32,685 nt of DNA, from the NCBI GenBank assembly GCA_017994835.1, contig JAGOKC010000021.1:1-32685 (forward strand). The letters run 5' to 3'. The notes under the pieces were generated by a model. The model saw only the letters and a list, made by a program, of their open reading frames with translations. It had not been told where the DNA came from and did not search any database. The DNA is from Aquabacterium sp. GTDB lineage: Bacteria > Pseudomonadota > Gammaproteobacteria > Burkholderiales > Burkholderiaceae_C. Position numbers and translations under genes: made by a program. Of this stretch, positions 21,754-26,858 are shown piece after piece. Numbering within the stretch: position 1 is the stretch's first letter; the number at the start of each line of letters is the position of its first letter.

Positions 21754-22914
21754 GTGCCCTGTCTGAACCTGCCGCCGCTGCCACCCGGCTTGTGGCGTGT
21801 GATGCTCAGCACGGCCCTGGTCGTGCTCGCCTTCAGCCTGCTCAGCCCCGTGCTGGCAGTGCGTCTGCAGACAGCGGGCGTCAGCGGCACGGCCATCGGC
21901 ACCTTTGCCATGCTGTCGTTCCTCAGCGTGGCCCTGCTCATTCCGGTCGTCCCCCATGTGTTCGCCCGCATCGGTGTGGGCCAGGCCTACCGGCTGGGAC
22001 TGGCCCTCGAACTGATCGCCTGCCTGGGCTACCTGCTGACCGACAACTACACCCTGTGGTGCGCGCTGGGTGTGCTGGGCGGCGTCGGCGCGGCAGCTGC
22101 CTGGAACGCCACCGAAGCCCTGATTGCGCACAACGTGCCCGCCAGCCACCGAGGCCGCCTCACCGGCCTGTATCAGGCCATTCTGGGTGCCGGGATGGCC
22201 ATCGGCCCTTTTCTGCCCGGACTGCTCGGATTGGGGCCACTGCAAGCCAATGCCGTCGCCGCCACCGGGTTGGCACTCGGATTAAGTCTGACGCTGACCC
22301 CAACCGTCGGTCAACTCAAAGCCATGCACGCAGACCGCGAGCCCATGAGCATGCTGGCTGCCTGGCGCTTTCGCCCCGTGCTGGTGTGGGCCGCCATCGT
22401 CGGTGGCGTCTTCGAAGTGGGCCTGGGCACCATCACCACGGCCTATGGTTCGCAAATCGGACTCAATCTGGCCGCAGCCACCTCCATTGCCGGAGCCCTC
22501 GGCATGGGCAGCTTTACCCTGCAATACCCTTTGGGCTGGTTGGCCGACCACGTTGCCTCGCGCCGCCTGTTTGCCATCGGTGCGGTCGTGCTGGCCATCA
22601 GTGGCGTGGCCTTCACCTTCGCCAGCCAATGGCCCGCCCTGATCTGGGTCTGCGCTGCTCTCTGGGGCGCGGTGGGTGGAGCCCTCTACACCCTGAGCAT
22701 GATCCGCGTCGCCCACGACTTTGCCGACTCATCGGCGCTGGCCGGCACCTCGGCCATGATCGCCGGCTACACCATCGGCGGCTCGGTGGGACCACTGGTC
22801 AGCGGCTGGGTCTTTGACCACGTCGGCGTCCTCGGACAAGGCTGCTGGCTGACCGTGCTCGCCCTCAGCCTGCTGTGGCTGCAGCGCCAACCCACCCTCG
22901 GCTCAAACGCCTGA
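21754..22914 (+). CDS. MFS transporter
   Basis: The 386-residue protein has about 12 hydrophobic segments and major facilitator features: a short loop with ASHRGRLTGLYQAILGAGMAIGPFL (about 130-154) as in motif-C-type exporters, and GWLADHVASRRLF after helix 8. The substrate cannot be inferred; drug or metabolite export is possible. The GTG at 21754, 1 bp after corA, gives the full first helix; ATG 21802 would cut into it. The 3' end overlaps the convergent sensor kinase gene by 12 bp. Confidence 0.87.
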   Translation: MPCLNLPPLPPGLWRVMLSTALVVLAFSLLSPVLAVRLQTAGVSGTAIGTFAMLSFLSVALLIPVVPHVFARIGVGQAYRLGLALELIACLGYLLTDNYTLWCALGVLGGVGAAAAWNATEALIAHNVPASHRGRLTGLYQAILGAGMAIGPFLPGLLGLGPLQANAVAATGLALGLSLTLTPTVGQLKAMHADREPMSMLAAWRFRPVLVWAAIVGGVFEVGLGTITTAYGSQIGLNLAAATSIAGALGMGSFTLQYPLGWLADHVASRRLFAIGAVVLAISGVAFTFASQWPALIWVCAALWGAVGGALYTLSMIRVAHDFADSSALAGTSAMIAGYTIGGSVGPLVSGWVFDHVGVLGQGCWLTVLALSLLWLQRQPTLGSNA

Positions 22915-24726
22915 CACCTCTCCCTTCGCGACAGCCAGATCACGCAGCAAACTCTGCAACAAATCGGCAGGTACCGGCTTGTGCAACAAGGCCAGACCCT
23001 GCGCCTGCGCATCATGCAAACGCTCGACAGCGGTATCTCCCGTGACCAAAGCCGCCGGCACCCTCATCCCCAGCCGCTCACGCACGGCTGCAACCGCCTG
23101 AAGCCCCGTCTCAGCGCTGCGCAGACGGTAATCCGCCAGCACCACATCCGGCACAAACCTCGACAGACACTGCAAGGCCGCATCCGCCGATGCCACCACC
23201 TCGCACTGCACACCCCATACCCCCATCAGGTCGGACATCGCCAACCGTACACTCTCATCGTCATCGATGAGCAGCACCCTCAAACCCCGCAAGGCCTGCG
23301 CCGATGCGGGCAACCGCTCCGGTGCCAACGACGGCCGCAAGCCCTGCGGCAAACTCACGCGGAACACCGTACCGCGCCCCGGACGCGACACCAACTCCAC
23401 ACTCACCCCCATGGCCTTGGCCAAACCCTGCACAATCGCCAGCCCCAAGCCCAAGCCATTGCGTCGGTCCCGCTGCGGATTGCCCAGCTGCTGGAATGCA
23501 TGAAAAATCGTTTGGTGCGACTCGGACGGAATGCCGATCCCGGTGTCCCACACCTCAATCACCGCACGGCCACCACGCTGACGGCAGGCCAGCAGCACCC
23601 CGCCACGCTCGGTGTAGCGGATTGCATTGAGCAGCAGATTGCGCAAAATCAGCTCCACCATGCCCTGATCGGCAAAAGGCGTCGCCACCGTGTCACGCAT
23701 GCGCAAAACCAAACCCTTGTCGGCCGCCCACGGTGCCAACTCCCGCTCCAGCTTGTGAAACAAAGGCTGCAAGGCAAAACTGTGCGGCTGCGGCTCGATC
23801 ATGCCCGCACCCACTTTTGAAAAATCCAGCAAGGTATTGAGCATCTCGCTGGCCGCCGTGTTCGATGCCTGCGCATGCTCGAGCAACATCGCCTGACGCG
23901 CCTCCAGCCCGGACCGCGCCAGCGAGCCCAGAAACAACCCTGCGGCATGCAATGGTTGGCGCAAATCATGGCTGGCTGAAGCCAGAAACAGCGTCTTGGC
24001 GCGATTGGCCTCCTCCGCCGTCTGCTGAGCCCCTTCAGCCAGATCGCGCGCCAACTGTGCCTGCTGCGTCTGCTCACGCAGTTGCACCACCAGATCATCA
24101 TTGTCCAGACGCAAAGCCAGGGCGCGGCGCACAGCCAATCCCGTATGACGGGCAAACAGCGCCATCGCCACCAGGTACAACATCCCGCCAAGCCCCAGGG
24201 AGGTCATGACCGGATCCTGCCAACGCAACAGCGCCACAACCATGGGCAGCATGCAACTCAGCCAGAACAACTGCGCCAATCGCCAAACCGGCGCAAACAC
24301 CAGCAACCCGGCCGAACTCAACCCCGCCATCACACCGACCACAATGTGCATGGAAGCCGGTCGCGCTGCGTCAATGAACAGCAGAGGCAACATCCCCCAG
24401 GCTCCTCCCAAGCCCAGGCAGATGCCACTCATGACACGCCGATAATGCTCCGCCGTACCCTCTGCACCAGGGAGTTCCGGACGCGGCAATCGCCGGTGGC
24501 ACCACACCCCAACCCCACACATCAACGTGACGGCCACGGCCCACAGCGCCACGCTCGTGTCATTCAAGGCATACAAAAAGGCCGCCACCGTCAACCAGGC
24601 AGCCAGCACCGAGGTCCGCAAGGTGACACCCACATTGCTGTCGAGCAACGACAGCTGAGCAGCCAGCAGGCGGGTAGATCCGGCAGATCGGGGGGCCGGG
24701 CCGCGCAGCCAGGCCAGCACCGTCAT
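22903..24726 (-). CDS. Hybrid sensor histidine kinase with receiver domain
   Basis: The N-terminal half (about 30-200) has six hydrophobic segments with no large periplasmic loop, so signals may come from within the membrane. A coiled linker (about 205-245) leads to a HisKA domain with phospho-acceptor His253 in SASHDLRQPLH, then the ATPase domain (N-box Asn367 in LLNAIRYTERG, DTGIGIP, GLGLGLAIV). A C-terminal receiver (about 483-600) has the acidic pocket IDDDE, phospho-acceptor Asp532 in LADYRL, Thr562 and Lys583 (HKP). ATG 24726 overlaps the regulator stop (ATGA), so 607 residues; a GTG at 24738 is an alternative. It forms a pair with the upstream LuxR-type regulator. Confidence 0.92.
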   Translation of the reverse strand: MTVLAWLRGPAPRSAGSTRLLAAQLSLLDSNVGVTLRTSVLAAWLTVAAFLYALNDTSVALWAVAVTLMCGVGVWCHRRLPRPELPGAEGTAEHYRRVMSGICLGLGGAWGMLPLLFIDAARPASMHIVVGVMAGLSSAGLLVFAPVWRLAQLFWLSCMLPMVVALLRWQDPVMTSLGLGGMLYLVAMALFARHTGLAVRRALALRLDNDDLVVQLREQTQQAQLARDLAEGAQQTAEEANRAKTLFLASASHDLRQPLHAAGLFLGSLARSGLEARQAMLLEHAQASNTAASEMLNTLLDFSKVGAGMIEPQPHSFALQPLFHKLERELAPWAADKGLVLRMRDTVATPFADQGMVELILRNLLLNAIRYTERGGVLLACRQRGGRAVIEVWDTGIGIPSESHQTIFHAFQQLGNPQRDRRNGLGLGLAIVQGLAKAMGVSVELVSRPGRGTVFRVSLPQGLRPSLAPERLPASAQALRGLRVLLIDDDESVRLAMSDLMGVWGVQCEVVASADAALQCLSRFVPDVVLADYRLRSAETGLQAVAAVRERLGMRVPAALVTGDTAVERLHDAQAQGLALLHKPVPADLLQSLLRDLAVAKGEVSGV

Positions 24727-25415
24727 GGCGTCACCCACCCTCGGGCCAACGCTTCGGTGTAAGCCTCCTGCCGACTGGTCGCATTCAGGCGCTCGGTCAG
24801 ACCCGACACCTCGGCGCGGACCTCGTTCTCACTCAAACCCAACTGACGCGCGATGGCCTTGTTGGGCGTTCCCCGCCCCAGGTAGGACAAGATCGCCAAC
24901 TGACGCGCGCTCAACGCTCCGACAGGCTCGACACGGTCGATCACGCCTGTCAACGCCACCGATACCGCCCCGCCCCCGCTCACACGCACGGGCTCTGGAC
25001 GCGCCACCGACGAAGTCACAGCAAAAGAACCTCGACTCGATAACGCCAAATGCACAGCGGCAACGATTTCAGCCGCCGAGGCCACCTTGGCCACCAGACC
25101 CGCGGCACCTCGCTGCTGCGCCTGCGCCAGACGCTCTGCATCCACCTGCGCAGACATCAACAAAATCGGACACCCCGGCAACAAAGATTGCAACTGAGCC
25201 AGGTTGTCCAGCCCATCACCGTCTGGCAACTGAATGTCCAGCATGACCAGGTCCGGTGCGGGCTGCATGTCACGCACCATGTCCAGCGCCTGGGCCCACT
25301 GTCCAGCATGCCGCATCACAGCCAAGGGCCAATACTCGGACAGCATGATGCCCAGCCCGGTGCGAAACAGGGCATGGTCATCCACCAGCAGGAAGCAAGG
25401 TCCGGAATGATTCAT
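24723..25415 (-). CDS. LuxR-type (NarL/FixJ) response regulator
   Basis: The 230-residue protein has a receiver domain (about 7-120) with acidic residues VDDH (11-14), phospho-acceptor Asp60 in VMLDIQLPDGDG, Ser88 and Lys110, and a C-terminal LuxR HTH (about 167-225: LSARQLAILSYLGRGTPNKAIARQLGLSENEVRAEVSGL). The linker between the domains (about 125-163) is long and Val/Gly-rich. The recognition helix part ENEVRAEVSGL departs from the usual KTVKNHV, so DNA targets may be unusual. It is translationally coupled to the downstream hybrid kinase through a 4-bp overlap, and lies 121 bp after aroG. Confidence 0.92.
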   Translation of the reverse strand: MNHSGPCFLLVDDHALFRTGLGIMLSEYWPLAVMRHAGQWAQALDMVRDMQPAPDLVMLDIQLPDGDGLDNLAQLQSLLPGCPILLMSAQVDAERLAQAQQRGAAGLVAKVASAAEIVAAVHLALSSRGSFAVTSSVARPEPVRVSGGGAVSVALTGVIDRVEPVGALSARQLAILSYLGRGTPNKAIARQLGLSENEVRAEVSGLTERLNATSRQEAYTEALARGWVTP

Positions 25416-25536: not shown

Positions 25537-26655
25537 TCAGCGTGCACGGCGCGCCTTGACGGCATCCGACAGCACCTTCAACACTTCTTTGGAGTCATCC
25601 CAACCAATGCACGCATCGGTGATCGACTGGCCGTAAGTCAGCTTGGACGGATCATCCTTGCCCGGTGTGAACTTCTGGGCACCCGCGCACAGATGGCTCT
25701 CGACCATCACACCAAAGACCTGGTTCGAACCACCCGCCACCTGTTGCGCAATGTCCTTGGCCACCACCACCTGACGCTCATGCTGCTTCGAGCTGTTGGC
25801 GTGCGAGAAATCCACCATCAACGAAACAGGCAACTTCGCCGCGTCCAGATCCTTGCAAGCGGCAGCCACACTCTCCGCGTCGTAGTTGGGAGTCTTGCCA
25901 CCGCGCAAGATCACATGACAGTCCGGATTGCCGGCCGTCTCCACGATGGCAACCTGCCCGCTCTTCGCCACCGACAAAAAGTGGTGAGGACGGGAAGCTG
26001 ACTGCATGGCGTCCGTCGCAATCTTGATGTTGCCATCGGTTCCATTCTTGAATCCGATCGGGGCACTGATCCCCGAAGCCAGTTCGCGATGAACCTGGCT
26101 TTCCGTTGTACGCGCACCGATCGCACCCCAAGAAATCAGATCGCCAATGTACTGAGGCGAAATCACATCCAGGAACTCGCTGCCCGCAGGCATGCCCATG
26201 CGATTGATCTCCAGCAGCAGATGACGTGCCATCCGCAAACCCTCGTCAATCTTGTAGGACTCATCCAGATAAGGGTCGTTGATCAGACCCTTCCAGCCGA
26301 CTGTTGTGCGGGGCTTCTCGAAATACACCCGCATGACCACCTCCAGCGTATCGCGGTAGGTCTCACGCAAGGCGAGCAGCTTGCGCCCGTACTCGATGGC
26401 GGCGGCCGGGTCGTGGATCGAACACGGGCCGATGATGACCAACATGCGGTCATCCTTACCATGGATGATCTTTCGAATGGCCTTGCGGGTGTCACTCACC
26501 AATGCTTCAACAGCGGTGCCCCGAATCGGGAAAAAGCGGATCAAAGCCTCCGGTGGCGGCAGAGTGGTCACTTTCTTGATGCGGGCATCGTCGGTTTCAG
26601 AGGTACGTTCGGCGGGTGAGACCCAGCCGACTGTGGCGCTGGACTTGGCTGTCAT
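25537..26655 (-). CDS. aroG: 3-deoxy-7-phosphoheptulonate synthase, class I (AroF/G/H type)
   Basis: DAHP synthase joins phosphoenolpyruvate and erythrose 4-phosphate, the first committed step toward Phe, Tyr and Trp. The 372-residue protein has the class I signatures GPCSIHDP (metal-binding Cys), KPRTTVGWKGLINDP, GSEFLDVISPQYIGDLISWGAIGARTTESQ across residues near 170-200, IGFKNGTDG, DFSHANSSKQ (metal-binding His), VMVESHL (Glu) and SITDACIGWDD (Asp). ACAGGA lies 6 bases before ATG 26655. It stands alone downstream of a leader peptide and attenuator, so it is probably the Phe-controlled isozyme; allosteric specificity cannot be read directly. Confidence 0.97.
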   Translation of the reverse strand: MTAKSSATVGWVSPAERTSETDDARIKKVTTLPPPEALIRFFPIRGTAVEALVSDTRKAIRKIIHGKDDRMLVIIGPCSIHDPAAAIEYGRKLLALRETYRDTLEVVMRVYFEKPRTTVGWKGLINDPYLDESYKIDEGLRMARHLLLEINRMGMPAGSEFLDVISPQYIGDLISWGAIGARTTESQVHRELASGISAPIGFKNGTDGNIKIATDAMQSASRPHHFLSVAKSGQVAIVETAGNPDCHVILRGGKTPNYDAESVAAACKDLDAAKLPVSLMVDFSHANSSKQHERQVVVAKDIAQQVAGGSNQVFGVMVESHLCAGAQKFTPGKDDPSKLTYGQSITDACIGWDDSKEVLKVLSDAVKARRAR

Positions 26656-26695: not shown

Positions 26696-26727
26696 AAAAA
26701 AAACCGCCGGGTTTGCCCGGCGGTTTT
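26696..26727 (-). terminator. Attenuator terminator in front of aroG (segments 3:4)
   Basis: On the minus strand AAAACCGCCGGG, loop CAAA, then CCCGGCGG followed by eight T (26703-26696) form a very stable 8-bp GC stem plus U-run, 40 bp before the aroG start. It is located after the leader peptide gene and its promoter, so it can only stop transcripts heading into aroG. On the plus strand the stem is followed by just four T. Confidence 0.93.
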
Positions 26728-26816
26728 CAGGATCTGGGTGGTCTGCTTACGCGTCCGCCACTCCTGCGCCGGTAGGGTGCTGGAAATGAAAGAAGCTAAA
26801 GTAAAAGCGAACCGAC
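26711..26816 (-). promoter_or_regulatory. Attenuation segments 1-3 of the aroG leader (pause and antiterminator stems)
   Basis: In RNA sense, segment 1 is GUCGGU (26816-26811, codons 2-4 of the leader peptide), segment 2 is ACCGGCG (26773-26767, codons 17-19) and segment 3 is CGCCGG (26722-26717, inside the terminator's 5' arm). Segments 1:2 pair over 6 bp with one G-U. Segments 2:3 pair over 6 GC base pairs, and this excludes the 3:4 terminator. A ribosome stalled at the Phe codons hides segment 1 and frees segment 2 to act as antiterminator. One that reaches the stop codon at 26747 covers segment 2 and lets the terminator form. This is the logic of the pheA and trp leaders. Confidence 0.75.
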
Positions 26817-26821
26817 TTCAT
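26747..26821 (-). CDS. Phe/Tyr-rich leader peptide controlling aroG
   Basis: This 24-codon reading frame begins MKSVR and continues FYFSFFHF (residues 6-13), then QHPTGAGVADA and TAA. Five Phe and one Tyr within eight residues is the hallmark of an attenuator leader peptide; E. coli pheA has a comparable MKHIPFFFAFFF start. The ATG is 7 bases from the -10 box with no Shine-Dalgarno sequence, so the RNA probably starts at or beside the A of AUG and is translated leaderless. The peptide itself likely has no other role; its translation reports the supply of charged tRNA-Phe (and perhaps tRNA-Tyr) to the downstream terminator/antiterminator. Confidence 0.85.
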   Translation of the reverse strand: MKSVRFYFSFFHFQHPTGAGVADA

Positions 26822-26828
26822 GGTCTTG

Positions 26829-26858
26829 ACTGTAGCACGTTGCACGCCCACGTCACAA
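26829..26858 (-). promoter_or_regulatory. Promoter of the aroG leader
   Basis: On the minus strand the -35 is TTGTGA (26858-26853) and the -10 is TACAGT (26834-26829), with an 18-bp spacer. The expected start is 26822 or 26821, which is the A of the leader peptide ATG. It lies just downstream of the terminator that ends the ribosomal protein operon, so aroG is an independent transcription unit. Confidence 0.78.

Follow-up and report, generated by a model that had tools for sequence, protein, structure and literature searches.

A predicted, conserved and probably leaderless aromatic leader-peptide attenuator upstream of the DAHP synthase gene aroG in Aquabacterium and its relatives

Organisation of the aroG locus

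What controls the entry step of the aromatic amino acid pathway in Aquabacterium sp. is the question raised by the region upstream of aroG, in which a short frame rich in aromatic codons precedes a hairpin with a run of T. The window, meaning the whole 32,685 nt stretch of DNA that was analysed, has on its minus strand, in order, the ribosomal protein S17 gene (identified by eye), then a terminator-like site, an extended -10 box, the leader frame, an intrinsic terminator and the regulated gene itself, aroG, encoding a class I DAHP synthase (25537-26655, minus strand; PF00793, E 2.9e-94). This is the single class I DAHP synthase match in its own genome, and a search of the same genome for a class II enzyme (PF01474) found none; hence AroG appears to be the only DAHP synthase present, in an assembly that is 94% complete and divided into 162 contigs, such that a missing stretch could hide another. 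The pheA gene of this genome has no leader directly before it, the gene ahead looking by eye like serC. Frames resembling a sensor kinase and a response regulator follow aroG on its own strand (22903-25415, by eye). The terminator-like site, found by a terminator scan after the S17 gene rpsQ (26896-26884, minus strand), sets the ribosomal protein genes apart from the aroG promoter.

The leader peptide frame (26747-26821, minus strand) comprises 24 codons and a TAA stop, MKSVRFYFSFFHFQHPTGAGVADA, and sits within a longer TTG-started frame in the list of open reading frames. Its regulatory codons, 6 to 13 (26783-26806, minus strand), read F Y F S F F H F, with Phe at codons 6, 8, 10, 11 and 13, Tyr at codon 7 and Trp absent. 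The original prediction had described such a frame, starting seven bases past a -10 box, having no Shine-Dalgarno sequence and containing five Phe codons and one Tyr codon; all of these features can be read directly from the window, and a frame of this kind recurs across nearly all of the family.

Conservation of the leader

Upstream regions of the best aroG match were examined in 143 of the 149 genomes of the window's family that had a match, the other six matches being weaker. A frame of 12-40 residues was counted as a leader if, within ten residues, four or more were Phe, Tyr or Trp. Such an aromatic-rich frame was found in 140 of the 143 regions, starting with ATG in 139 cases and GTG in one. 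Two of the three regions without one are at contig ends (L220, L221), and the third precedes the second copy of a tandem aroG pair, the first copy of which does carry a leader (L222, L230). By contrast, none of six paralogous DAHP synthase genes from the same family (57-62% identical; L224-L229) is preceded by a leader, nor is any of six further paralogue regions from the order sample (L316-L321), one of which has a TTG-started frame that was not counted. These sequence comparisons confirm the leader as real, conserved and nearly universal in the family.

Amongst the named aroG loci, 74 of 80 have the leader, and one of the others has only 48 upstream bases. The five remaining are all from Cupriavidus (L064, L070, L072, L076 and L081, with aroG 73-75% identical), in which the aromatic leader seems to have been lost or replaced.

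The leader also reaches beyond the family. An order-level sample comprised 110 genomes, 84 with a class I match; the region before the best match was read in each, and weak frames lacking a terminator were excluded by eye. An aromatic leader followed by a terminator was present in 25 of the 84, the window's own genome included, representing 12 families. The remaining 59 include two close AroG matches (75-76% identical, both in family f32), in which the leader was not found, and the rest are at most 66% identical. Searching class-wide with an RNA model, R1, gave matches at E <= 0.001 in 32 of 369 genomes, seven of them strong (E < 1e-7): three in the window's family and four in two families outside the order (three in f63, one in f68). 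Of the 18 R1 loci outside the window's family that were checked, only four have a DAHP synthase gene as a neighbour, in each case following the leader, and these are exactly the four strong matches from outside the order; half of the 14 weak loci outside the family are partial matches to the 3' part of the model. In a sample of the class (84 of 114 genomes matched), the 28 top-ranking DAHP synthase loci from beyond the family include one with a leader (L370); another (L367), whose aromatic frame is not followed by a T-run, was not counted.

Amino acids sensed by the leader

All three kinds of codon, for Phe, Tyr and Trp, are present in 127 of the 140 family leaders, and a common core reads FYF-x-YFWFS. 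The FWF motif is shared by 115 of the 140, and the third bases of the codons around it vary where the amino acid permits, as would be expected of selection acting on the peptide at this point. Since 127 leaders hold all three types of codon, the comparison supports a signal of aromatic starvation in the family, rather than of the charging of tRNA-Phe alone. The initial description of the region as a phenylalanine attenuator fits the window itself, with its five Phe codons and one Tyr codon, and needs widening to an aromatic sensor for the family as a whole.

The window's leader is one of ten in the family that have no Trp codon (L001, L091, L099, L106, L124, L128, L136, L177, L181 and L215). 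Nine of these ten belong to genomes in which class I DAHP synthase was matched only once, a raw count over the ten leaders. This is the opposite of what might be expected, since an enzyme without a second copy should respond to Trp as well.

Promoter and translation start

Upstream of the leader frame is an extended -10 sequence, TGC-TACAGT (26829-26837, minus strand; hexamer 26834-26829), with a weak -35-like TTGTGA, matching the consensus at four of six positions, 18 bases further upstream (26853-26858, minus strand). A consensus promoter and terminator scan of the window listed neither this promoter nor the terminator proximal to aroG. Across the family, 130 of 140 leaders have TG ahead of the hexamer, which reads TACATT in 95. 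A -35 box with five or six matches to TTGACA, at a spacing of 15-19 bases, is found in 18 of 137 family leaders, compared with 1.8 expected from shuffled sequences; four matches are found in 13 (15.1 expected), and three or fewer in 106. On this comparison, the conserved part of the promoter is the extended -10, GTGC-TACATT, and the -35 is weak and mostly unconserved. The promoter originally proposed, TTGTGA-18-TACAGT, is therefore upheld in its extended -10; as a good -35 occurs in only a minority of the family, TTGTGA is not to be relied upon.

The distance from this hexamer to the leader start is tightly constrained: it is seven bases in 80 of the 140 family leaders, eight in 35, six in 12, nine in eight and ten in two, with no hexamer found in three. 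Because the leader frames were picked partly by their -10 box, which favours this count, other starts and shuffled sequences were used as controls. A -10 box scoring at least 5 at a spacing of 6-8 bases precedes 122 of the 140 leader starts and none of the 140 aroG ATG codons; it is absent before the 598 remaining ATGs of these regions and turns up in 14 of 2800 shuffled sequences. Conversely, a Shine-Dalgarno-like motif is found at two of the 140 leader starts but at 109 of the 140 aroG starts. Given this narrow spacing and the missing Shine-Dalgarno sequence, the leader mRNA is probably leaderless, beginning at its AUG, as had been suggested for the window. The predicted transcription start in the window is the A of that codon (26821, minus strand), seven bases past the -10, within the range of six to eight bases seen in 127 of the 140 family leaders. 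Outside the family, a -10-like box (score of at least 4) at a spacing of 6-8 bases was found in 10 of 22 leaders and was missing in the other 12.

Alternative RNA structures

The leader RNA can fold in mutually exclusive ways. Segment 1 (26776-26796, minus strand) pairs in the window folds with leader nucleotides 52-71 (26770-26751), and segment 2, CCGGCGCAGGA (26762-26772, minus strand), defined by complement search, alignment and folds, is within the leader frame. Segment 3 (TCCTG...CGCCGG; 26717-26732, minus strand) can pair either with segment 2, to form an antiterminator, or with segment 4, to form the terminator. The latter (26696-26728, minus strand; hairpin 26728-26699, T-run 26703-26696) has 13 pairs, a four-base loop and eight T before aroG, in keeping with the GC stem and T-run first noted there, and in all 140 family leaders a T-run likewise comes after a segment whose folding energy is -12.4 kcal/mol or lower. 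The fold of the window's leader is 3.68 sd better than those of shuffled sequences, none of 200 of which reach it. With segment 4 left out, the 2:3 antiterminator forms (-24.0 kcal/mol, nucleotides 50-107), pairing nucleotides 50-60 with 90-94 and 100-105; when segment 4 is present, the 3:4 terminator forms instead.

These pairings were compared across an alignment of 60 of the 87 non-redundant leaders (derived from 162), consisting of the first 42 of 69 from the family and all 18 others. Standard pairs fill 87.9% of cells for 1:2, 87.6% for 2:3 and 95.5% for 3:4, as against 15-78%, 15-56% and 16-55%, respectively, when the same pairings are slid by one to three columns. Double changes occur at four of four pairs in 1:2, and at two of seven in both 2:3 and 3:4. 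The number of cells with double changes beats all 500 shuffles for each of the three pairings; counted by pairs, double changes are less telling, since 30 (1:2), 220 (2:3) and 104 (3:4) of the 500 reach the observed number. Slid versions equal or beat the true register on double changes in two instances, 1:2 moved by one column (13 cells versus 12) and 2:3 moved by three (four pairs versus two). Related loci show segments 2 and 3 changing jointly (CCGGCGG/CCGCCGG, CTGGCGG/CCGCCAG and CCGACGG/CCGTCGG), and the best complement of segment 3 averages a score of 20.5 in the family compared to 14.0 in shuffled sequences. Taken alone, the 2:3 match of the window is reached by three of 50 shuffles. 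In L104, one leader of the family, the 2:3 match is not convincing, shuffles reaching it in 43 of 50 cases. The exclusive pairings first proposed for the window thus find support both in its own folds and in the double changes amongst the aligned leaders; in relatives, aromatic codons are kept in 140 of 143 regions.

The usual 1:2 pairing in the family joins the TCTC of the Phe-Ser codons after Trp to a downstream GAGA (TTCTC:GAGA), whereas the window has a different, longer pairing. The spacing from GGCGG to GAGA is seven bases in 100 of the 140 leaders and eight in 15, with another value or none in 25. Those with a spacing of seven fall into three reading frames, containing 88, 10 and two leaders, and 13 of the 88 have a stop codon that overlaps GAGA or comes ahead of it. 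As the spacing is kept across three frames, comparison of the sequences indicates that the tail of the leader is conserved as RNA, not as peptide. In 110 of the 121 leaders for which it was measured, 13-16 nt separate the start of the Trp codon from segment 2, which fits a ribosome stalled at Trp covering segment 1 and ending just short of segment 2, given the usual size of a ribosome footprint.

Proposed mechanism and alternative explanations

The region has the features of the attenuator class: a cluster of codons for the end products, mutually exclusive 1:2, 2:3 and 3:4 pairings and a terminator before a biosynthetic gene. Since the aromatic codons, the three pairings and the terminator are all conserved, aroG is very probably controlled by a ribosome-mediated transcription attenuator, which bears out the central proposal made from the window alone. 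RNA polymerase would start at the A of the leader AUG, as judged from the spacing, and a ribosome would load on this 5'-terminal codon without a Shine-Dalgarno sequence. When charged aromatic tRNA is short, the ribosome would stall, presumably within codons 6-13, covering segment 1 and leaving segment 2 free to pair with segment 3; the terminator would then be blocked and aroG transcribed by read-through. When charged tRNA is plentiful, the ribosome would run on through segment 2 inside the frame, allowing 3:4 to form and transcription to terminate at the T-run. The entry step of the pathway would in this way answer to its end products through the charging of tRNAs for Phe, Tyr and usually Trp.

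Attenuation might also operate on an RNA that starts further upstream, with a 5' untranslated region and a frame translated without a Shine-Dalgarno sequence, in which case the leader would not be leaderless. Some leaders outside the family (e.g. L237, L239 and L245) do have, by eye, a -10-like box around 20-35 bases before the ATG. In the family, however, 122 of the 140 leaders have a strong -10 box 6-8 bases ahead of the start codon, which puts the beginning of the RNA at the AUG or within a base or two of it, and we regard an upstream start as unlikely. A different proposal is that the terminated leader RNA, its peptide or both act in trans, besides or instead of attenuation, in the manner of rnTrpL and peTrpL of Sinorhizobium meliloti; termination would free a small leaderless mRNA of the kind described for rnTrpL (excerpt of PMC7298713). 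Against this, the RNA elements are retained from genus to genus whereas the tail of the peptide differs in frame and length, and the conserved elements are explained by pairing in cis, making a trans-acting product an unlikely explanation. The same variation in the tails weakens the case for a peptide with a function of its own.

It is scarcely credible that the hairpin is simply a constitutive terminator insulating aroG from the ribosomal protein genes, with the short frame incidental. Insulation can be the role of a strong terminator placed just ahead of a gene, but a separate terminator-like site already follows rpsQ, and an insulator would not account for aromatic codons, start spacing and alternative pairings being conserved in 140 of 143 regions. 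An insulator-only role was rejected on the comparison of these main genes with the same family's paralogues, all six of which lack the leader.

If the attenuation model is correct, a large group of environmental bacteria can use tRNA charging to set aromatic flux at the pathway's first enzyme, a single leader reading Phe, Tyr and Trp together. Cultivable strains among them would also allow a test of whether leaderless initiation is preferred when ribosomes have to engage nascent RNA without delay.

Relation to known systems

A DAHP synthase gene under attenuation by a leader peptide with Phe and Tyr codons has already been reported in Corynebacterium glutamicum, and the idea is not new. In this species a Phe-Tyr-Phe leader, aroR, precedes the DAHP synthase gene aroF, transcription of which goes up under Phe limitation (excerpt of PMC11802643); the aroR leader also appears in excerpts of PMC4046766 and PMC7356990 and in PMC3890552, and leaderless initiation is discussed for the ilvBNC leader (excerpt of PMC11857589). 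The aroG leader resembles aroR in being a short Phe/Tyr peptide ahead of a DAHP synthase gene, but belongs to a different phylum; furthermore, aroR is reported to be unresponsive to Tyr availability. Unlike aroR, the leader described here usually adds a Trp codon and has segment 2 inside the frame. All of the C. glutamicum attenuators studied by Neshat et al. in 2014 are said to be leaderless. The original prediction considered attenuation of DAHP synthase through a leaderless peptide a notable variant with respect to E. coli; the C. glutamicum case makes this less surprising, whilst the leaderless appearance of the leader itself has gained support.

The leader of enteric pheA, pheL, is built along similar lines: it has Phe codons and hairpins that exclude one another, and its terminator precedes a gene of the aromatic pathway, albeit a different one; unlike the aroG leader, it is led by a Shine-Dalgarno sequence. 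It is named in the excerpt of PMC11802643. The Rfam model Phe_leader (RF01859) scores 16.9 bits in the window and at most 26 in nine relatives, below its gathering score of 55. The trpL leader of S. meliloti (rnTrpL) begins at the AUG of its frame (excerpt of PMC7298713), as proposed here; it differs in having Trp codons, in preceding trpE(G) and in belonging to an alphaproteobacterium. Putative attenuators from the Merino database, selected for tyrA and listed in Table 7 of PMC1173090 (excerpt), include ones at Vibrio DAHP synthase-tyrA operons and at a gyrA-serC-pheA-tyrA cluster of Bordetella parapertussis. These entries are predictions.

No Rfam family matched the window at its gathering score. 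Matches at E values of up to 10, to unrelated families and to Phe_leader, had low scores, and the best in the window (NsiR1, E 0.028; psRNA14, E 0.098) were taken to be chance similarities to a terminator-like structure. Four aroG leaders and one trpE leader had no match in Pfam or NCBIfam, peptides this short being hard for such models. The RNA element is absent from the libraries searched (Rfam, Pfam and NCBIfam). No recognisable report of a Burkholderiales aroG attenuator was found in the literature searched, subscription papers being mostly outside its reach; an excerpt of PMC2965389 mentions a figure naming 65 attenuated gene families, and an earlier prediction of the aroG leader is possible. 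Overall, this is a well supported attenuator, near-universal in its family, usually with codons for three aromatic amino acids, probably leaderless and having half of its antiterminator inside the frame.

A similar arrangement upstream of trpE

Leaders of the ..RGAWPWR type precede trpE in 27 of 28 regions from the family (L387-L414), a count that covers the 28 of 30 genomes with long matches and concerns leader frames, with no terminator established. The -10 box is 6-8 bases from the start in 23 of these, nine bases in one and outside the range tested in three. We consider it about as likely as not that leaderless leader-peptide attenuators are the norm in this part of the Burkholderiales, the aroG leader sensing three aromatic amino acids, the trpE leader sharing the same spacing from promoter to AUG and the ribosome loading at the first base, as a lineage-wide solution to the coupling of transcription and translation. 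In the Aquabacterium genome itself, trpE is preceded by the frame MFISRKQTKGPHDRGAWPWRCCAAPA, containing Trp-Pro-Trp, the ATG of which lies six bases after TGC-TACACT (L261:1245, contig C159).
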